Positions 7,680 through 61,601 of a DNA stretch of 64,000 bases are shown here, in pieces. Source of the stretch: Microcyclospora pomicola. Its lineage: Eukaryota; Ascomycota; Dothideomycetes; Capnodiales. The DNA is taken from contig NHNY01000010.1 of NCBI GenBank assembly GCA_002786065.1, positions 124,001 to 188,000 on the forward strand, read 5' to 3'. Every line of letters begins with the position of its first letter. The first letter of the stretch is position 1. Below the pieces are notes generated by a model. It was not told the origin of the DNA. It ran no database searches and saw only the letters and a program-made list of their open reading frames with translations. Both the position numbers and the translations under genes were made by a program.

Positions 7680-8142
7680 GCAGGGGGAGGACCCGACCGT
7701 GACTAAGAGTGCCTCACATGACTGTCTCAGATAGACTTGTATACTGTAGTAAGACAGCGTACATACATGATTATGGTTCTTCGTTGATTTTAGAAGGCCA
7801 GGCGTCGTGATGATCGTAAGACCACCTGAGCGAAAGGGTCAAGACCCTGAACGCATTACTAGAGGCAATCTTCATTTCGTAACATCTCTAAACACCATTC
7901 CAGCTGTCTGTCCGCGAGACTTCATTCATAATGTCAGCTATGGAGGCACTGGACAGAAGCCCAAAAATGTAGCGAAGGAGATCGGACTCAGACATGACCA
8001 GGTTGCCCAGGTCTTCCTCTTAGGATGTCCTCTCCCCCGATTCCCGCCTATTACCCCAAATGTTAGTTAGCCGAACGACGTTTCGGATCACAGAAGAACG
8101 CAAAAAGATCAAAAGATTGAGCTGCGACACTCTGAGGTTACT
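7680..8142. other. Intergenic, MDN1 3' flank to tRNA-Lys
   Basis: I see no supportable gene here. An 87-codon frame on the + strand (7807-8070) has no recognisable features and is probably chance. The first part presumably holds the midasin 3' UTR and poly(A) signals. Confidence 0.5.
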
Positions 8143-8238
8143 CCCGCGGAGAGGCTCGAACTCTCAACCTTGAGATACCAGTGACTCCGAATACAGAGCT
8201 TAAAAGTCTCACGCGCTAGCCAATTGTGCCACGCGGGA
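8143..8238 (-). tRNA. tRNA-Lys (anticodon UUU) with a 24-nt intron
   Basis: The minus strand folds as a tRNA. The 7-bp acceptor stem is TCCCGCG/CGCGGGA, and the D-arm is GCAC...GCGC with one A-C mismatch. The anticodon stem is TGAGA/TCTCA around loop C-T-TTT-A-A, the variable loop is AGGTT, and the T arm is GAGAG-TTCGAGC-CTCTC. The anticodon TTT reads lysine AAA/AAG codons. An intron interrupts it at the canonical place, one base 3' of the anticodon: 24 nt at 8177-8200, to be removed by the tRNA splicing endonuclease rather than the spliceosome. The discriminator base is G. Internal A and B boxes (TGGCACAATTGG-type and GGTTGAGAGTTCGAGCC-type) would drive RNA polymerase III. Both stems flanking the intron pair perfectly, so the call is firm. 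Confidence 0.93.
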
Positions 8239-9333: not shown

Positions 9334-10760
9334 CCTGGGGAGTCGGCTAGATCCGATGCTGGTCTTCAAAGGCGAAGCTAAGCAATGCAATGATGTATGT
9401 CTGCGGTGAAGTGATAGATCGATGCACAGAGTTCAACGACTCCGAAAATACCAGGTCAAGCAAGACGAGGTAAACTTCGTTGCTGCTGTTTTGTTGAGCC
9501 TTTTCAATGCAAGTGCAAAGCAAGACAACGTCAGGTCCAGTATGGGACCGGGGAAGGACTGATTCATGCTTGATCAGACTCGATTGGCGCGTGTCGAATA
9601 TGATGTTGTTTGCCAACATCACTGCCTGCTCTGTATATAAGATGTCTTACGTATAGAGATGATTATCGTTATCTCTAGGCACACTTCACCTTTCGAAGTT
9701 GGTCTCTGAACTGTTGTGCTTTCACGCCATCAGCCCGGCGCATCATCCCGTCAAGACACACAGCTTCGTCATGCGTCTTTGTGTCCGTACATGTAAGCCA
9801 TCATGGCATCGGACGAATGCGATAAAGCACGGAGTATGATGCACATGCTCCGTCATGCTGACCCAGTATGGAGTGTTGGGACATACAGCATATGTAATTC
9901 CTGGCTGGTTGTGTCGTGCCACTTCCAATCGGTCGTACTATGACCTCGTCACCTCCTTGTTTCTGCGCCCACAACAAAGGATGGGTTTTCTGTCTCCTTA
10001 CCGTACTGATCGTATGTGGCGGGATATTGAGTGTAGGTACTCATGCATTACGGATGAAAGAGCACGCCACTGCTGAACAACAGTGCATTACAATTACACA
10101 CCAAACCGGCGTCGTCCTCTGCGACACCGAGGTCACGGATGCCGGCCAAAGACGAGGAGGACAATGCTTCAATGAGTTCAGCCAAGGTATCGCGAAGGCT
10201 GAGGCCTCAGCACCATTGCTGGTCCCGGGCTAAGAGGCTTGTACTGATTCCTGGCTGGCGGTGTTGCCTCCATGCGCCGCCATACAGCATCCATCGACGA
10301 ACTGGCGCACAGAGATATGTATGGACTGGTAGCATTCGTCAGCAATAAAGATCGTCTTTTGCGCACGCATCATATGTGTTGCGCAAGGTGTGTTTCCCCC
10401 ACGATGCACTGCGCCAACGCATCATTGACGTTGACTGCTGTCCGCAGACATGCAAGGACATCAGAATAAAGCGAGTCACCGCTGGCATTGATACACGATA
10501 TGACTACCTACAGCTGCCATATTGTAGTAGACTTATTTATATGGTGCCTGGCATGATCGATCTGGATGTGGCCCATGATATGTTGTACGATGTCAGGCAA
10601 GGTCGGGCTGTCTCTCGAAGCTAAAGGTTACACTCAAAGGCTTCAGTGCCTCCACGCCACTGTCATGCTATCATTGTTCGAAGGATCTTCCTTCAGGCCA
10701 TGTGCCTATTGAAACAGTAAGCTGGGACTCAGCTTTCCCGTGGACTTGTTCCAGGTCAAT
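9334..10760. other. Gene-poor stretch of 1.4 kb
   Basis: Frames of 60-105 codons occur on both strands (for example 9347-9622 minus, 9916-10233 plus), but none has a recognisable domain, a consistent splice structure or a signal peptide. No terminal repeats or transposase-like frame were seen. The last part should contain the promoter of the secreted-protein gene starting at 10761. Confidence 0.4.
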
Positions 10761-13700
10761 ATGTTTTCATTTCCGCTTCACGTCTTGAGCTGGCTAGGTG
10801 CTTCTGGTAGCAGAAAACCGACCGCCCTCTTACATCGAAGTCCGTACTAATTTGATCTGCAGTGCCTATGTTCGCTTCCGTTGATCATGGTACTTTGCAT
10901 CTCGAGCAATCGGGTAAGAACTGCATGATGAGATCTCTTGGTCCGGACTGATACTTCAATCAGCTCGCAACATATCCATGAATCCCGCGGGAGCCAATGC
11001 ATCAATGTTTCCAACGGGAGGTACGATTCCAATAACAAGAACCCATCCTGGGGATGAGCTTAGGAGTGATAGCAAGGCCTTTGAGACAGAGCGGAAGATT
11101 TCAGACCAAGTTATTATAACAGCAAGCACATACCACGGCTATCTCCCCATAGACTCTCCTCAACGAACAAGCCTGGACATACCTGTGACAACCCTGTCCC
11201 GAGCATCAACGAGCTATATTCAGGTTCCAGATCTGGGGCACCAAGCAATAGCGGCATTCGTGTCAGTTCGAAAGGACGTTCCTTCATCTCGAGGAGACCA
11301 CAACTTGCCGCAAATTACTCATCCATCGCATATTACTATAACATCAAGTGCAGTCCGAGTCGTACCTGTAAGAAGCTCAGTCGCAGCTGGTGTGAGTTCG
11401 ACTGATGCCATTAACTACGCCAATGACTTCACTCCGCCACGTCTGCTTAGCAATCCAGGACAAGCTACCAGCATAGGGCACCCGAGCACATTTCCAAGTA
11501 AGAAGCGCCGCTCTCTTGGCAGCTCTTTAAGTTCCTCTTCAGCGAAGAGACTTCCAGTGGCACCAGCTGCCAGAAACCTCCATATCGAACCAAAAGCATT
11601 GTTCCCTCGAGCGCTGCTAGGTACTGGACCCGTACCACCTTACGAGACATCTCCTCCGCGAAACGATAATACGGGCTTTGGTTCCTTCGGAGCCGCTCCC
11701 ACTGCTCTCCGTCCAGATATACGAGTCGAGCAACTTCCTCAGAATAAGCTTGCGCATAATGTGACCAGTACACAGTCTGTCGCCTCGGAAGACTCTAGTA
11801 AGTGCTTACCATGTTTCAGTCTTTCGATCCCCGATCTAATCCGTGGTAGTGGACGGACCGTACTGTGCTATAGGCGGATTTGATTTCGACGCCGAGTCAG
11901 GCGAGAATGGACCGCCTCTCGAGCGTTCTGGCGATGACGAGAACAATGGTATGTTGCCTGCGCTATCCTGTTCAGCGCACATCCTGTCTCTGACATACCA
12001 AGTAGATGATATAATCTCTCAAGACGACGACGACGACGAGGGTGTAGAGGGACCAGGAATAGGTCCTGTTCCACCATATCCGATTTACCCTCTGTTGAAT
12101 AGTACCGTGGCTCCAGGTACGCCGTTGAACGGAACTCGTCGTGATGGTCGACCTAACGTGTTCATGTAGGTGGCAATATGTCTAATGGCACAGGTCAGTC
12201 TCCGTCGCTGCACATGGCAAGTCAGCTGTTCTAATATACAGCTGGGTTGAAGATTTCTTTCCCGACGAAGACGAAGGTCTTGAGGGTGCCGGTCCGATAA
12301 GCCTCGGTATAGGTAGGCTGCTATGAATGATCTTTGACTCGTGACTCTTGTCTAACTCGTCACAGGAGGGGATGACTCGACGGAAGATGAAGGCGAAGAA
12401 GGCCCTGCCCTGGAAGGCTCCGGTGAGATTCACTCCCAAACACAACCCTTGCCATGAACGACACCCTAACTTGCGGCTCGAAAGTAGACGCTCTCGACGA
12501 AGACGAAGGCCAGGAAGGCACCGTTGCACCGGGAGTAGCTATTTGTAGGTCGTCTGTCAATGTCTGCTATCAAACAAGACGTTCTTACGTGGAAGATAGA
12601 CGGAGGAGCTTCTATTATCGAGCCAGACGAGGATCAGGGTGAGGACGGCCCTCCTCCTTACCCACTTGAAGCCGGTGAGCCCACCCCGTCCAACAGCGAT
12701 ACCCGCGGTGCTGACCTGTGATATGAAAGCTCCGGCATGTAGTGCAGTATTCGACTATGATGAAGACCAGGGTGGAGACAGCACTTCATCTTTGAGCAAC
12801 GCAACAGGTAAGTCCACCTAACGGTTATTGATGTGGACGTACTGACTTTCGACTCAGTTGGTGAGTAACATACCCTGGACGTCGATTTGGGAGAGAACTT
12901 GGGGTGAGGTCGACGTTATGCCGAGCGGAGACACGAGTGATCCCCCGATGTCACAGTCGAGACATTCTGACGGTCGCCACAGATGGAGGCTCTTGCCACA
13001 TTCCTATCGGGGATGATGACGAGGGCGAAGATGGTATTGAATCCGCCGACCCCAGTTCAGGTAGGTGCTAGTATTATGCTTGTCGTATGATGAGATCTAA
13101 CGTGGGACATAGCTGGGACCGCTGCCGACGGCGATGAAGGTGAAGAGGGCGATGCTCCTACGTGTAGCCCGACTAGAAGTACGAGCTATGTGGTCTCATG
13201 CACTTCTCCACCTGCAAGCTCTACACGAATTTGTAGCACAACGGCAACGATCATTCAGACCGTATTGGGTTCTGGCTGCAGTACTACAGCATCGCCTAGT
13301 AAGTGTGATTGCCCCAGAATTCTGTCTACGCTTGCTCTAAGTATGTGATCTAGAAACAACGCTCTGTCGAAGTCCGCTCGACTACAATGCTGCCCAAGGC
13401 GACGATACTTATGGCAATCTCACTAAGGCGGAGATAACCTTGACATCTGCGACACCAGTGGTGACACCCGATTGCATACCAGCAGCGTCAGGGATCTATC
13501 CAACTAAATCGGCAGTTCCGGCTGTGCAGAATTTCTGCAACGAGATCACGTCCGAGGAGTCTCTTATGCTATATCCTGGGTGTGGCTATGAGAAGAACCA
13601 GACCTATCCTCTCGAAGGGGGTCTATTCAAGCTGCAGCTTGTCATGAACTGGCAGGGTAATGGGCAGAATACAACGATCGGGGATAGTCTTAAGATCAGC

Positions 13701-14602
13701 CAGTGCAATTCGTACTTTGAAGACATGATGAAATCTTGTAAGTGCGGAGATGTAGCGTCCAGGATCGTGACTTCCGCTAATGCTCTACAAGGTCGCGATG
13801 TGAACGACGAGGGCAGCTCCACGCCTGGCATCGCAACCTACGGAGGCTGGGGAACGTGGATAATTCTGCTCGGGGCAGGTAGGTCTCCAAGTCTGATGAA
13901 GCGTGATCGTTGTTCGGCAACCAATATTGATGTGCTTATACTCAGAGAATACTGGTCCAGCAGTCTCCTCATCCTCCGCTTCCAGCACCACAAGTCTCGC
14001 CAGTACAACTTCGATAACCACATCAAGCCCTGCCGCCACCACATCTATTGGAACCGCGGGCAATCCGCCCGTAGGTGCCGGTTGGGCTACATACTGTGCA
14101 CCGAATCCCGACACTGATAACTCCCAACTCGCGTTCAGTCGAGATGTCCTGCTCGTCGCTTACCAAACCTTTTGCGATGAACTTATACAGCTGAAGTCCC
14201 CTCTCGTGTTCGGTGGGCCAGCTGATGCCTCACACAGCCTGAGCTATACACCTAATTCAGCTGACGGGCTCGATCCAGTGCGTGACTCGACTCAGGTCCT
14301 CTTGTCCGCTACATATAGTGCTCACGATCAGGGGCTGTGCCCAATCCTCACATTCAATGACACCCAAGGCCTCGACGAATGCGAACAAGCCTTTGGCAAG
14401 ACCCTGGACGGTTGTGAGTTGTCCTATGTGAATTGGTAGGGTGGTGAACGATATAAGGCTGACGGCATTGGCAGGTGACACTTCTAACCCCAACAGTTAC
14501 TACTATTGGAAGCAGGGCGGCATAACTACTGGATACTGTATTGAGTGGAAGATGGGAGCAGAGGGCATGACGTTTCCAATGACAAGCGGATCCAAAAAAT
14601 GA
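10761..14602 (+). CDS. Secreted multi-exon protein with acidic mini-exon array and two C-terminal Cys domains
   Basis: This is a predicted secreted protein of about 941 residues from 17-18 exons, and I do not know a named homologue. The start at 10761 gives a signal peptide (MFSFPLHVLSWLGASVPMFA). Exons: 10761-10806, 10863-10913, 10964-11797, 11850-11948, 12006-12116, 12170-12193, 12253-12312, 12366-12422, 12488-12544, 12600-12674, 12730-12807, (12858-12860), 12983-13060, 13113-13298, 13354-13737, 13792-13878, 13946-14413, 14475-14602. Exon 3 is a Ser/Thr/Pro-rich region of about 278 residues. Exons 4-14 each carry about one acidic unit (DEDEGLEG, EDEGEEGP, DEDEGQEG, DEDQGEDG, DDDEGEDG, DGDEGEEG). 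The C-terminus holds two related domains (FCNEITSEES...YGGW and TFCDELIQLK...LDGCD...YWKQGG) of the kind attached to fungal chitinase-like and cell-wall proteins, separated by a Ser/Thr linker. All introns fall in phase 1. Secretion and wall association are inferred; the function is unknown. Confidence 0.75.
11850..13168 (+). repeat. Tandem array of short symmetric exons encoding acidic repeat units
   Basis: Exons of 99, 111, 24, 60, 57, 57, 75, 78 and 78 nt, plus the beginning of the next one, are all multiples of three and are all bounded by phase-1 introns. Most encode one degenerate copy of [DE]-D-[DE]-[GQ]-x-[ED]-G. Introns are 52-65 nt with clear donors, except one longer gap of 122 or 175 nt (12808 or 12861 to 12982). 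The pattern fits repeated duplication of one exon-plus-intron cassette. Confidence 0.75.
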
Positions 14603-14932: not shown

Positions 14933-16139
14933 CTACAGCGCTACCTCATCAAACTTGCCGTCCTCGCCAGCGCCATCATCCTCTACTTCTTGCGCTTTGT
15001 GGCTATGAGTTGAATCTGCGCCTACTTTACTTGCAGCAGGAGATACCTGTTCCTCTTCTTCATCACTATCATCTTCGTCCTCTTCGTCGTCAGTATCCTT
15101 CGCTGCTTTTGGCCGTTCGGGAATCGATGCTACAGCCACCGCTGGTGCACTGGTCGGCTCGCTTCGAGCTTGCGGTGGCGCTGAGTGAACACTATCCTCG
15201 TGTGTAGCTGTGTCTGGTGTCGGCGGGGTGTGCTCGATCCTGGGACTATTCCGGGACTGCGGCGGCGCTTGTGTATCGATGCGCTGCTGGACCGAAGAGG
15301 GCCCCATCTGTCGATCCTTGGGATTTGCGTCCAGGTAGTATGCTCTTACTCCCACAAGCCTGCCCTCCCTTTCACAGCCTTTTAGCCAGTCTGGAACGAC
15401 AACAGGCACGTTGAGTTCCACTGCCTTCTCCCATGCTTGGCCGCGACGCTCGGTACAGACAAAGTGTGTGGTGTCAATGCGGACTGTATCGATCATCTTC
15501 GCTCCGATCTTCTGCACCGTCTCGGCCAGACTGTCCTTCAGCGCCGAGGGCATGACGCCTGGGGTGATCGTGATACCAGTGAGGTCCGTCATCTTGTGTG
15601 TGCGGACGGTCAACTTCTCGCTGCTGTACTGCCCAGCGCTCGTGCGCAACACCAAATGAAAGGTGTATTCTGTATCCAACGCCAAGCCAGAAATCTTCGT
15701 GCTCAGCTTGTCGCGAGGAATCACACCAGCTTTGGTGCCGTTCCGATAGAGACTCAGGCTCCGCAGCTCGGCCGTGGCGAGGTTGATTGGGTCCCATTCT
15801 AGCACAACGGAGGTCTGAGTGGCATTGCGACACCGCAGAACTGGAGCAGTGGGGGAGGCATTGCCGAAAGTGTTGAAGATCTCATTTTGTAAAGTCGCGA
15901 ATGTCTGGTCTGCAACAAGCTCGGCTTGGGAGTTGTGTGAAACGTTGATATCGACGATACTGCCCGAGTGGATGTCCGGTGGTAAGAGGATGGAGGGAAA
16001 CTCGATCTAGGCATTGGAATACGTATTAGTTCATTGTCGAACAACGTACAGGTCAGAGAATACGCACCAGACGCTTATCTTCGGTGAGAAGCACCGCGAC
16101 ACCGGCATCGACCTTGCCAACGGTAAGTGAGACAAGCAT
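14933..16139 (-). CDS. CHS5: Chs5-type exomer scaffold (FN3-BRCT)
   Basis: Chs5 is the scaffold of exomer, the coat-like complex at the trans-Golgi that sends chitin synthase and other cargo to the cell surface. Exon 1 (16068-16139) encodes MLVSLTVGKVDAGVAVLLTE. A 61-nt intron (16007-16067) follows, and exon 2 runs to the stop. About 381 residues are predicted. Visible parts are the N-terminal beta strand/helix assembly segment (about 1-75), an FN3 domain (about 80-165, LEWDPINLATAELRSLSLYR), a BRCT domain (about 170-260, GAKMIDTVRIDTTHFVCTER...VVVPDWLKGC), and a low-complexity Pro/Ser and D/E/K-rich tail. This order is diagnostic of Chs5. The tail is shorter than in yeast (671 residues) but normal for filamentous fungi. 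Start choice is firm because the short first exon matches the conserved family N-terminus. Confidence 0.92.
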
Positions 16140-21749: not shown

Positions 21750-23703
21750 ATGGACACGGCTGACGGTGCCATCGAGGCCGAAATCGATCTTGATCAAGAA
21801 GCGATCCAACGGCGCGAAGAGGAACGGAGGTCTCGGACGAGTGGGAAGCTAGCAGCGCAGGTTGCCAAAGGAGGTGTGGATGCATCAGTCGAGTCGACGA
21901 GAGATAGCGCAGACGAGAACTCGCCGTTGCTACCGCAAAGAGACGAAGATGATGCGGACGACGAAGACAATGGATCATCGGAGGTTTGGACGGGTTTGCA
22001 AGAGTTCGCACATCTGCCCTGGTACAAACGACCTTCAGTGCTATGGATGCTACCACCTTTCTTTCTCATTGCTGTCGCGTTTGGAGGCGCCATAATTCCA
22101 AAAATCAACCTTATTTGGCAGCTGGTCTGCCGGCAGTATATCGCAGAGCAAACCATTGCCCATCCAGGCTTTACGATGGCACCAGTCGACTTTGCAAATG
22201 GTGGCAAGAACGATCAATGCCACATTCCAGCGGTCCAAGCCCGCGTCTCCACATTCTTGCTCTGGTGCAGTCTTGTTGCGGGTCTGATCTCAGCCATTAC
22301 AAGTCCGAAGCTGGGCTCGCTCTCTGACCGCTATGGAAGGAAACCGATTTTGATGTTCGCCAGCGCAGGGATGATATTGTCGGAAACGGTCACCATTTTC
22401 GCGGCTGAATACCCCGAAAGCTTCCCCGTGGAACTGCTGCTGGTGGGATATGCCATGGAAGGATTGGGCGGGTCTTTCATCCTAGTCATGGCCATCGCGA
22501 ACGCATATGCGACCGATTGCACTGCACCGAATATGCGCAATGTCATCTTTGCATACTTCCACGGGTGTCTCTTCACCGGCATAGCCATTGGGCCTGTGCT
22601 GGCCGGCTATGTTGTCCGCTGGACCGGACAGATCGTCATCGTGTTCTACATCTTGCTAGGTGTACACATATTCTTCGTGCTGTTCATTGCTATCCTGGTT
22701 CCTGAATCTCTATCAAAGAAGCGCCAAACACTCGCGAAAGAAAAGCATAGGAATCTAATGGAGCTGCTTGGCCCCGATGCAGACTGGATCAACCAGGTCC
22801 GCTCCATGAACCTCCTCGAGCCGCTAAAGGTCCTGTTTCCTACAGGACCGGGCACAAGCTCTGCTTTGCGATGGAACCTCATCATTCTTGCCGCCGTCGA
22901 CACCATCATGTTCGGCGTGGCAATGGGTAGTATGACCGTCGTCATCATCTATACCGAAGCTCAATTCGGCTGGGATACCCTTGAGACCGGCCGGTTCAGT
23001 TCCATCGTGAGCAGCAGCCGCGTCATCTGCCTGCTGATCGTTCTTCCCATCATCACTCGCCTGGTGCGTGGCAAGCCAGGCTTGTACAAACCGCGTGCCA
23101 CAGGCAGTGACACGTTCGACCTCAGCACAATCCGCATCGCCGTACTCTTCGACACAATCGGCTATCTCGGGTATACACTTGCACGCACGCCAGCGCTCTT
23201 CACGCTCTCCGGCGTCACGGCAGCCATTGGCGGGATAGGCTCCCCATCTTTGCAATCAGCCCTTACGAAACATGTTCCTGCTTCCAAGACTGGCCAACTT
23301 CTCGGCGCCATCGGTTTGCTCCATTCGCTTGCCAGAGTTGTCGCGCCCGCCATCTTCAACGCCATCTACGCCAAGACCGTGGGCAAGTTCACCCAGACGG
23401 TCTTCGTATGCCTGACCGCCACGTTCGGCTTGGCTTTTCTCATCAGCTGGTTCATCAAGCCTCATAGTATGTCTTCCTTTTCTTCTGCCTATGCATCAAA
23501 CTTCCCACTTCTGTAATACCCACTAACATATCTCCCGCGCAGTCTACCTAGATGAGAACGCCACCGATGCAGACGACGACAACTCCGAACCTCCGCCTCG
23601 CCGTTGGAACGAAGGCCGCGTGCCTATCATCTCGGCTGTCGTGGGTGCTGTGTCGGCCGCCTTCATGTTCCTGCTCGGTCGTGGCTCATCTGCAGCCAAC
23701 TAA
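21750..23703 (+). CDS. Major facilitator superfamily transporter (DHA1-like)
   Basis: This is a 12-helix MFS transporter of about 625 residues in two exons (21750-23466, 23543-23703) split by a 76-nt phase-1 intron. The long acidic N-terminus (about 95 residues) is cytosolic. The first helix begins near VLWMLPPFFLIAVAFGGAII, and a large loop (PVDFANGG...) follows helix 1. Motif A is clear between helices 2 and 3 (LGSLSDRYGRKPIL). The final exon supplies the last helix (RVPIISAVVGAVSAAFMFLLG). The architecture, including the acidic N-terminus and the long first loop, resembles the fungal TetA/Hiat1-like DHA1 group and the vacuolar-membrane YCR023C type. The substrate cannot be read from sequence; a drug/H+ antiporter or vacuolar transporter are the likely options. 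Confidence 0.88.
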
Positions 23704-44710: not shown

Positions 44711-45943
44711 ATGGACTTCATCGTAGGCACTTTCAACCATAGCCTCTTCACCCTGCACTTCCAAACAGGCCCTCAACCTCGTCTGGCAATAGTCCGCGAG
44801 ACTCCAGCCGTTGGAGGACATTCTTGGCTGGCCCTACCCAAGGACAAGAAACACCTCTACTGCACCGTCTGGCATCCCACCAAGCCCGCCGTCGCGGCAT
44901 ACCGGATCAAGGACTCTGGTCGCGAGATACAGTTCATCAACGCCAAACATGTCAAGAACATGTCCGGCTACGTGTGCGTGTCGGCGTCACACCTGTACAC
45001 CGTCGGTGGCGCGACTGGGGAGGTCTTCACCATTGGCTCTGAGGGCGAGGTTGGCGATCTCGTACAGGAGCTCGATTTCGTCAACCACGATCCGAGGAAC
45101 ATGAGTGCGCAGCGTGGTGCGGTGCCGCATGGTGACTTCGGCGGACTGAGACACGGCGCGCACAGCTGCGATTTGAGCGTGGATGGGAAGAATCTGTATG
45201 TGGCGGATATCGGACGCAACTGCATTTGGACCTACAAGATCAATTCTCGATACGGACCTGATCATCGTGGACTGAAGATCGGTTCGTGGGCTTCGGACGC
45301 CTCCTCTTCCCAGGCGTCATTACGAGAGGATCCAGAAGTGCAGCATCTCGAACTCGGCTCCAAGCATATCTCGCCACGCGCACATGACGGCCCTCGACAC
45401 ACTTGGCCACACCCGAACGGCCGCGTCCTTTACAGCTTGCAAGAGCACAGCAGCATGGTCGACGTCTTCTCCATCTCACCTAAGGATGGTACAACCCTCC
45501 GCCACCTCCAAGGCGTCCCGATCATCCCCTCGGACAAGGACTGCAAAGCATACTGGGCAGACGAGGTGCGGCTGTCCACAGGTCCGGATGCAGCTCACCC
45601 GAGATATCTATACGCGTCGACACGCGGTCTGAAGGCGGACACGAAAGGCTATGTCGCCGTGTATGCTTTGGGTGAGGACGGGCTGATCACAAGCGAGGGG
45701 CTGGAGAGAGCGCTGGACATCTGGGAGACGCCGACGAGTGGCGGGATAGCCAACGCGATCGAGCCGGCGCCGTGGCATGCGGATCATGGAAATGTCGAGT
45801 ACATCGCGATGACGGATAGCGAGCTAGGTGTGGTCTCCGTGCTGAGCTTTGACGGCACGAAAGTGCAGGAAGCTGCCCGACTGAGTCTAGGAAAGACGGA
45901 TGATGGTGAGATTGCCGGCGCTGCGACTGCTGTATGGCTGTAG
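44711..45943 (+). CDS. 3-carboxy-cis,cis-muconate cyclase (lactonase-type propeller)
   Basis: This is a single-exon gene for 410 residues. The protein matches the fungal carboxymuconate cyclase family, a seven-bladed beta propeller related to 6-phosphogluconolactonase (lactonase family). Characteristic pieces are HSWLALPKDKKHLYCTVW, RHGAHSCDLSVDGKNLYVADIGRN, PRAHDGPRHTWPHPNGRVLYSLQEHS and GIANAIEPAPWHADHGNVEY. In the fungal protocatechuate branch of the beta-ketoadipate pathway the enzyme turns 3-carboxy-cis,cis-muconate into 3-carboxymuconolactone. No other aromatic-catabolic gene lies beside it. Related propellers have other lactone substrates, so the exact reaction is inferred from the family. 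Confidence 0.82.
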   Translation: MDFIVGTFNHSLFTLHFQTGPQPRLAIVRETPAVGGHSWLALPKDKKHLYCTVWHPTKPAVAAYRIKDSGREIQFINAKHVKNMSGYVCVSASHLYTVGGATGEVFTIGSEGEVGDLVQELDFVNHDPRNMSAQRGAVPHGDFGGLRHGAHSCDLSVDGKNLYVADIGRNCIWTYKINSRYGPDHRGLKIGSWASDASSSQASLREDPEVQHLELGSKHISPRAHDGPRHTWPHPNGRVLYSLQEHSSMVDVFSISPKDGTTLRHLQGVPIIPSDKDCKAYWADEVRLSTGPDAAHPRYLYASTRGLKADTKGYVAVYALGEDGLITSEGLERALDIWETPTSGGIANAIEPAPWHADHGNVEYIAMTDSELGVVSVLSFDGTKVQEAARLSLGKTDDGEIAGAATAVWL

Positions 45944-47551: not shown

Positions 47552-48850
<1,299 letters not shown>

Positions 48851-60344: not shown

Positions 60345-61601
60345 ATGCCTAACGTGATTTTCGCAATCAATGCGGGCTCATCGTCCGTCAAGGTCTCAGT
60401 CTTCAGCTACGCGGATCAAAAGCCGAAAGAGCTTGCTGTGATCCAGATCGCTGGACTTACCGCACCTCCCGCGAAACTCACATATGACAGAGGCGATGAA
60501 CACATAAAAGATAAGGAACTCGACGACATTTCTTCGGCAGAAGAGGCATACGAGAAGATCTTAGAGCATCTTGTATCTGATAAAGGTCTTTCGGAACTGA
60601 ATTCCCCGGATGATATCGAGTTTGCTTGCCATCGCGTTGTTCATGGAGGTGACTACAACCGACCAGCCCGAATCAATCACGACACCTACCACCACCTGGA
60701 AGAGCTGTCTGATCTAGCACCCCTGCACAACGCAGGTGCTCTGACCATCGTCCGGGCGGTTCACTCGAAGTGTCCCAAAGCCATCAACGTCGCATTCTTC
60801 GACTCGGCATTTCACCAGACCCTGGCCCTTCCGGTCCGCACCTATGCCATCGACCCCAAGACCGCCGAGCGCAACAAACTCCGCAAATACGGCTTCCACG
60901 GCCTGTCTTATTCCTTCATCGCTCGTACTGTCGCTGCACATCTTTCCAAGCCATCCTCCGACCTGAACATCATCGCCCTGCATCTTGGCTCTGGCGCGTC
61001 TGCGTGCGCGATCCAGAACGGCGAGTCGTACGACACGACGATGGGTCTGACACCGCTGGCAGGCCTCCCTGGTGCCACTCGTAGCGGCGACATCGACCCG
61101 TCCCTCATCTTCCACTTCACGCACGATGCCGGCAAGCTCTCACCATCGAGTACCAAGGACATGCACATCACCGCGGCTGAGGAGATCCTCAACAAGAAGT
61201 CCGGCTGGGCCGCGCTCACGGGCACGACGGACTTTGGCCAGATCTCCGCGCGCGCGGAGGACGGCGATGAACAGTGCAAGCTTGCTTTTGACCTGTTCAT
61301 CGACCGCCTGATTGGGTATGTTGGTGCGTACTACGTGCGGCTGGGTGGTAAAGTGGATGCGCTGGTGTTCGCAGGTGGCATTGGCGAGAAGGGCGTGCAA
61401 CTGCGTGAGGCGGTGACGGCGAAGGTGCAATGTCTCGGCTTCGAGCTGGATGGCGCGAAGAACGGCAAGCTAGAGGATGCCCCGGTGGTAGACATTAGTG
61501 CGGCCGGAGCACGGCATAAGGTGCTTGTTTGCCAAACCGATGAACAAGAGGAAATGGCGCGGCAGTGTGTCCTTGAGGCAGACGAGCTAAGAAAGAACTA
61601 G
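60345..61601 (+). CDS. Acetate kinase
   Basis: Acetate kinase interconverts acetyl phosphate + ADP and acetate + ATP. In fungi it partners with xylulose-5-phosphate/fructose-6-phosphate phosphoketolase (Xfp), and some fungal enzymes are pyrophosphate-linked or favour acetate formation. This is a single exon for 418 residues, of normal length. Motifs in order: FAINAGSSSVKVSVF (phosphate 1), HRVVHGGDY (substrate Arg/His), FFDSAFHQTL (catalytic Asp region), YGFHGLSYSFI, ALHLGSGASACAIQNGES (phosphate 2), GLTPLAGLPGATRSGDIDP and FAGGIGEKG (adenosine). The acetate-site and catalytic residues look intact. No Xfp gene lies in the window. The 3' end is only about 50 bp from the TLG2 3' end, so their transcripts may overlap. 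Confidence 0.95.
   Translation: MPNVIFAINAGSSSVKVSVFSYADQKPKELAVIQIAGLTAPPAKLTYDRGDEHIKDKELDDISSAEEAYEKILEHLVSDKGLSELNSPDDIEFACHRVVHGGDYNRPARINHDTYHHLEELSDLAPLHNAGALTIVRAVHSKCPKAINVAFFDSAFHQTLALPVRTYAIDPKTAERNKLRKYGFHGLSYSFIARTVAAHLSKPSSDLNIIALHLGSGASACAIQNGESYDTTMGLTPLAGLPGATRSGDIDPSLIFHFTHDAGKLSPSSTKDMHITAAEEILNKKSGWAALTGTTDFGQISARAEDGDEQCKLAFDLFIDRLIGYVGAYYVRLGGKVDALVFAGGIGEKGVQLREAVTAKVQCLGFELDGAKNGKLEDAPVVDISAAGARHKVLVCQTDEQEEMARQCVLEADELRKN

Follow-up and report, generated by a model that had tools for sequence, protein, structure and literature searches.

Exon shuffling between phase-1 introns is a classic of animal extracellular proteins. Exon-shuffled phase-1 proteins of animals are mentioned in PMC1626468 (in excerpt), which gives a glycine-codon account of phase-1 introns close to signal peptides as well as the exon-shuffling answer to that account, and which describes fungal proteins with both a signal peptide and introns as too rare for that statistic. 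In parasites and insects, arrays of small exons of one phase have been linked to secreted proteins that change fast. The micro-exon genes (MEGs) of schistosomes encode products with signal peptides, have a coding region made up mostly of very small symmetric exons and, in the excerpted text, are said to appear restricted to platyhelminths (PMC4350168). The bicycle genes of aphids, which encode putative effectors, contain many small internal exons of the same phase (PMC9168663, in excerpt). We recognised no fungal micro-exon or same-phase gene in the open-access literature as excerpted; a fungal case would show the architecture arising where introns are short and phases mixed. Here we describe a candidate gene at positions 10761-14602 of a 64,000-nucleotide stretch of the Microcyclospora pomicola genome (the window; contig NHNY01000010.1, positions 124,001 to 188,000), which appears from its gene model to consist of about 17 exons, nearly all beginning and ending at the same place in a codon.

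The gene was called with a gene finder of our own in which intron phase was left free and the donor, branch-point and acceptor scores followed the general fungal consensus. The codon scores were taken from the long open frames of the window, target locus included (run 1), or from other genes with the target locus left out (run 2). In both runs the best (Viterbi) parse is a single plus-strand gene at 10868-14602 with 16 introns, 16/16 of them in phase 1, and an alternative start at 10761 adds a phase-1 intron (10798-10862) and gives a hydrophobic N-terminus. The locus scores +62 and +39 in two codon settings, in each of which the minus strand and 100/100 dinucleotide shuffles score 0 (no gene), and 11 of the 17 introns carry a CTNAY branch-point motif that begins 14-17 nt from the 3' end. 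The locus thus modelled appears to be a real, single protein-coding gene with a predicted protein of about 910-923 residues. All 15 internal exons of the 17-exon model are multiples of 3 nt, as had been proposed from a first reading of the DNA (the earlier note); nine of the 15 measure 81 nt or less and one measures 36 nt or less, with exons 3, 14, and 16 holding 1,686 of the 2,772 coding bases. The predicted exons are as follows.

10761..10797, plus strand: exon 1, from the alternative start, hydrophobic N-terminus MFSFPLHVLSWL; the least certain part
10863..10913, plus strand: exon 2; start ATG of the best parse at 10868
10964..11797, plus strand: exon 3, 834 nt, Ser/Pro-rich N-terminal region
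11874..11948, plus strand: exon 4, 75 nt, acidic, without a clear unit
12006..12116, plus strand: exon 5, 111 nt, unit DDDEGVEG; alternative phase-2 3' end at 12165
12170..12193, plus strand: exon 6, 24 nt, GGNMSNGT; dropped in the alternative parse with intron 12166-12241
12253..12312, plus strand: exon 7, 60 nt, unit DEDEGLEG
12366..12422, plus strand: exon 8, 57 nt, unit TEDEGEEG
12488..12544, plus strand: exon 9, 57 nt, unit DEDEGQEG
12600..12674, plus strand: exon 10, 75 nt, unit DEDQGEDG
12748..12807, plus strand: exon 11, 60 nt, unit DEDQGGDS
12808..12982, plus strand: one intron of 175 nt, or introns 12808-12857 and 12861-12982 flanking a 3-nt exon TTG; phase 1 either way
12983..13060, plus strand: exon 12, 78 nt, unit DDDEGEDG
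13113..13298, plus strand: exon 13, 186 nt, unit DGDEGEEG, then a Cys/Thr module; introns 13190-13236 and 13299-13372 form a mixed-phase alternative
13354..13737, plus strand: exon 14, 384 nt, with the degenerate unit and the bulk of the marginal lectin-like domain 1
13792..13878, plus strand: exon 15, 87 nt, in which domain 1 ends; the intron before it interrupts a Cys TGT after T
13946..14413, plus strand: exon 16, 468 nt, with a Ser/Thr linker and the bulk of domain 2
14475..14602, plus strand: exon 17 with the stop codon, completing domain 2 (YYYWKQGG...C); the intron before it interrupts a Cys TGT after T

The gene contains an acidic array. Exons 5 and 7-13 (eight exons) encode one unit each, with the consensus D-[ED]-D-[EQ]-G-x-[ED]-G, in which position 3 is D and position 5 is G in 8/8 cassettes; all eight are both open and acid-rich in the phase-1 frame and in no other. 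The earlier suggestion that exons 4-14 mostly carry one such unit each therefore holds for these eight, but exons 4 and 6 have no acidic unit and exon 14 has only the degenerate YNAAQGDD. The longest intron or intron part, the 122 nt at 12861-12982, reads LDVDLGENLG in the frame of the cassettes, with stops on either side, and may be a decayed cassette.

The C-terminal part contains one clear lectin-like domain (domain 2) and, before it, a marginal one (domain 1). A profile (A1) was built from four relatives, namely a paralogue on contig C4 and proteins of Polychaeton citri, Zasmidium cellare, and Cercospora kikuchii, species of Capnodiales and Mycosphaerellales (Dothideomycetidae), whose placement suggests the same subclass for the fungus studied here. 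Domain 2 matches this profile with an hhalign probability of 99% (E 2.4e-18), including the conserved Cys and KQGG. Introns 13738-13791 and 14414-14474 each split a Cys codon TGT after T in the same aligned column of the two domains (MAFFT), and hhalign likewise pairs both intron-split Cys with the same profile column. The C4 paralogue has TGC at the aligned Cys and no intron in the domain. The shared Cys-codon intron is the best single sign of a doubled module bounded by phase-1 introns, and it leans on the marginal domain 1. Against the gathering cut-off of PF18647 (Fungal_lectin_2), 26.5 bits, the whole protein scores 17.6 and domain 2 alone 23.0, with no match for domain 1; the relatives likewise fall under it (C4 21.2, P0001 21.7, and P0003 23.6 bits; P0002 none). 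The domain profile had no match in PDB up to E 10. From the sequence we infer a protein that is probably secreted and may bind sugar through its lectin-like domain. The paralogue is placed as follows.

Stretch L016, 4390-6627, about 284 kb along contig C4, minus strand: paralogue, predicted secreted-type protein with a poorly modelled middle part; homologues in Polychaeton citri, Zasmidium cellare, and Cercospora kikuchii

Genome searches for further paralogues found only the gene itself with exon 3 and with exons 13-15, and the gene itself plus C4 with the last domain. Searches for protein homologues, in a database that does contain fungal proteins, covered the C-terminal half and those candidates that share five-residue words and measure about 508-1,615 residues, so that homologues annotated as split or short would escape them. 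Within that scope, residues 450-908 had no homologue at E <=0.001 among 7,989 scored candidates, and residues 765-915 had none at E <=10 among 124 scored candidates. The missing matches may come partly from split annotation of such genes in relatives.

Uniform phase 1 is out of line with the other predicted genes of this fungus, as the earlier note had supposed for fungi in general. Across 190 kb of contig C1 (the genome measures 23.4 Mb), 60 predicted genes hold 118 introns with phases 0/1/2 of 38/43/37, the longest run of equal phase is 4, and one gene with 13 introns has mixed phases. One doubtful C1 gene has 5/5 phase-1 introns under a drifted model and 4/4 under a C1-trained model. The other genes of the window have phases 0/1/2 of 6/11/4; these background introns, in C1 and the window, are predictions as well. 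Odds were counted for 16 introns, with the start at 10761 and 12808-12982 as a single intron. The probability of 16/16 in phase 1 is 2e-8 under uniform phases, 1e-7 with the C1 phase-1 share, and 3e-5 with the share of the other window genes; weighting the gene's own codons by splice-site preference gives 5e-6, sites required to follow G give 3e-5, and AG|G sites give 9e-5. The phase-1 share expected in the array is 51% with the position weight matrix (PWM), 57% after G, and 60% at AG|G. Uniform phase is thus less surprising than one third per intron would suggest, because acidic codons starting with G favour phase-1 sites. For the seven introns outside the array, the probability that all are in phase 1 is 0.0011, and with the two domain introns merged and the array counted as one event it is 0.0015. 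Introns of an array made by duplication would not be independent; if the array counts as one event, gene-wide uniformity has a p of only about 0.001, which is notable for a single gene and modest against a whole genome.

The explanation we favour, with moderate confidence, is an old tandem duplication of an exon cassette bounded on both sides by phase-1 introns, together with a splice-site bias towards phase 1. An ancestral exon flanked by phase-1 introns would have been duplicated in tandem long ago to give the cassette array, and every added copy would have kept the frame because both exon ends share one phase. Acidic codons starting with G would have added a bias towards phase-1 splice sites, and the C-terminal two-exon domain was probably doubled in the same way. 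The product would comprise a Ser/Pro-rich N-terminal region, an acidic spacer of eight cassettes, the Cys/Thr module, and one marginal and one clear lectin-like domain. We infer this history, and a role for the spacer as a length-adjustable or cation-binding stalk, from the layout of the predicted exons.

To judge how firm the phases are, 500 parses were sampled in each of four settings, of which 441, 479, 480, and 496 reached 14602 (1,896/2,000 overall). The mean phase-1 share among these was 0.957, 0.947, 0.885, and 0.871 by setting, and all seven listed junctions at 12313-13112 have a posterior of 0.78-0.99 in phase 1 in the four settings. A self-retrained splice model was dropped after it drifted to 16% GC donors.

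A number of observations weigh against the favoured reading, and several concern the phases themselves. Fully phase-1 parses numbered 226/441, 204/479, 58/480, and 19/496 in the four settings, the self-retrained splice model gave 13/15 phase 1 at the locus, and a C1-trained codon model gave 15/17. Two segments (12117-12252 and 13190-13372) have mixed-phase alternatives of near-equal or slightly better score. In the former, a phase-2 intron at 12166-12241 scores 1.3-1.9 nats lower than two phase-1 introns around the 24-nt exon; in the latter, a pair of introns in phase 0 and phase 2 loses by 3.4 nats or wins by 0.7, depending on the setting, and the phase-1 reading is preferred there because it keeps the Cys/Thr stretch, of a kind present in a gene on contig C13. 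The claim that every intron lies in phase 1 stands for the best parse and gives way at these places in other models. Keeping the 54-nt intron 13738-13791 in the transcript scores 0.2-0.5 nats above splicing it; it is taken as spliced because, in an alignment of the two C-terminal domains, both introns then fall in the same Cys codon. Intron 10798-10862, with a posterior of 0.06-0.37 over four settings, is the least certain part of the gene, and the putative signal peptide hinges on it.

Further points of this kind concern the domains and the cassettes. The similarity of domain 1 is marginal (BLASTP E 0.007; hhalign probability against profile A1 9%, E 0.0037), which weakens the argument from domain doubling. 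A genome search with PF18647 returned C4 only, without the target gene, and the phase rule is not common to C4, where the domain is intronless and the first intron is predicted in phase 0. Intron cores within the gene are not clearly alike (maximum score 20 vs. a null of 18.7 +/- 2.0, P 0.31); mean intron similarity is 12.94 vs. a null of 11.97 +/- 0.20 with branch points left in, and 10.40 vs. 10.07 +/- 0.18 (1.8 sd above) with branch points trimmed. Synonymous agreement between cassettes shows no excess (0.458 vs. a permutation null of 0.473), and Tandem Repeats Finder (TRF; score >=50) reported no array at the locus. If the cassettes are duplicates they are therefore old, since neither introns nor synonymous sites show a clear excess of similarity and there is no TRF array. 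Nothing shows a currently growing array. Of the system of exon-cassette duplication suggested earlier, old duplication is supported by the eight same-frame motif exons and the introns in a shared Cys column, but growing or shrinking at present is not borne out.

The rival explanations are not mutually exclusive. It is a minor but credible possibility that splice-site bias alone is responsible, with introns gained independently at sites that follow G and so land in phase 1 in an acidic protein rich in G-starting codons. The expected phase-1 shares of 51-60% in the array would suit this, as would the little similarity that the introns retain to each other, the remaining p of about 0.001 once the array is counted as one event, modest for a whole genome, and a glycine-codon version of the argument reported for signal-peptide regions (PMC1626468, in excerpt). 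However, independent gain leaves 5e-6 to 9e-5 for 16/16, the introns that follow A or T (11798, 12545, 13299, 13738, and 14414) are also in phase 1, and duplication accounts better for the single motif in each exon and for the Cys-codon intron that the two domains have in common. Recent mobile-intron copies inserted at one phase are very improbable as a source: introner-like elements are reported from Dothideomycetes (PMC4457414, in excerpt), but intron cores within the gene are not clearly alike. As a candidate, such copies were contradicted, near-identical intron copies not being found within the gene. The gene model could itself be partly wrong, with the coding frame right, several junctions different, and the true phases more mixed. 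The alternatives at 12166-12241 and 13190-13372 point that way, as does the minority of fully phase-1 parses in three of the four settings; we hold this to be quite unlikely, as C1-trained settings still give 87-89% phase 1 and the seven junctions at 12313-13112 stay in phase 1 in all four settings.

A fungal micro-exon gene, in which symmetric cassettes would be retained since combinatorial skipping yields a frame-intact pool of variants, as proposed for schistosome MEGs, is a tentative idea that we rate as rather doubtful. The 15/15 internal exons of 3n length are consistent with it, only 3 of 136 joinable exon pairs have a stop at the junction (9-14, 9-16, and 14-16), and neither intron 11949-12005 nor intron 13738-13791 contains an in-frame stop, both being of 3n length, so that retention would be open too. 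The scarcity of junction stops may, however, reflect base make-up alone, and only one of the 15 internal exons is 36 nt or less, nine being 81 nt or less. A fuller version, unlikely in our view, would have a secreted lectin-like protein with an acidic spacer, combinatorial skipping of its phase-1 cassettes, and gain or loss of cassettes from strain to strain, giving a pool of frame-intact surface variants.

The rest of the genome was searched for related cassettes. Exact matches to the pattern GAYGANGAYSARGGNNNNGANGG number 10 genome-wide (2 for a control pattern), five of them within the gene; the other five are single, on C6, C13, C14, C23, and C32, and only C13 looked related. A DYDEDQG-type DNA pattern has two exact places, the target array and a GDSL/FG-GAP gene on C13, while a looser acidic pattern with <=3 mismatches has 191 (control 71). 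Among about 100 of these 191 places, two neighbouring stretches (on C16 and C31) were read as candidates for a second acidic array, and both held unrelated genes. The C13 motif lies in a predicted exon of 190 nt, with phase 1 before it and phase 2 after.

Stretch L017, 2378-7232, plus strand: C13 gene, GDSL lipase and FG-GAP repeats, then a similar-looking Cys/Thr module and a single DYDEDQG motif; 19 predicted introns of mixed phase

Other features of the window are listed here. The functions of the last four come from Pfam.

8141-8238, minus strand: tRNA gene (Rfam RF00005) spanning 98 nt where the model has 71 positions, which suggests an intron
9940-10230, plus strand: 97-residue open frame upstream of the target gene with a hydrophobic N-terminus and several Cys, possibly a small secreted protein; no Pfam match (E 0.001)
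14933-16139, minus strand: predicted neighbour gene, tail to tail with the target at a distance of about 330 bases, which looks like Chs5 by its fibronectin-type and BRCT-like sequence
21750-23466, plus strand: MFS transporter
44711-45940, plus strand: 7-bladed lactonase
47555-48751, minus strand: ferrochelatase
60345-61563, plus strand: acetate kinase

The gene offers a clean test of why phase 1 wins, be it through cassette duplication, through the splice-site bias of acidic codons, or through selection for harmless skipping. Such genes could be missed or split by gene callers, so more may sit unannotated. Compared with the PF18647-like proteins (C4 and those of Polychaeton citri, Zasmidium cellare, and Cercospora kikuchii), the target shares the C-terminal domain, the conserved Cys, and a KQGG/K-GG motif; unlike in them, the rest of the target is unmatched, and the C4 domain is intronless with its first intron predicted in phase 0. 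As in animal exon-shuffled proteins, its modules are bounded by phase-1 introns on both sides in the best parse and the protein is of putative extracellular type, whereas here an exon corresponds to a short acidic motif and not to a folded domain, and the gene is fungal. A module with the same borders in unrelated genes was not found in two candidates (C13, phase 1/phase 2; C4, domain intronless). The exons of aphid bicycle genes begin at codon position 2, the junction type made by the phase-1 introns of the target (PMC9168663, in excerpt), although the target is one fungal gene and not a large family, and the likeness is architectural. Unlike schistosome MEGs, the target is a predicted fungal gene, has cassette exons mostly of 57-111 nt and one exon of 834 nt, and carries a lectin-like domain. 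It resembles them in the layout of its predicted symmetric exons, many of them small (PMC4350168, in excerpt), a likeness that implies no homology. If combinatorial skipping and cassette turnover were true of this gene, it would represent an independent origin of micro-exon gene architecture in fungi.

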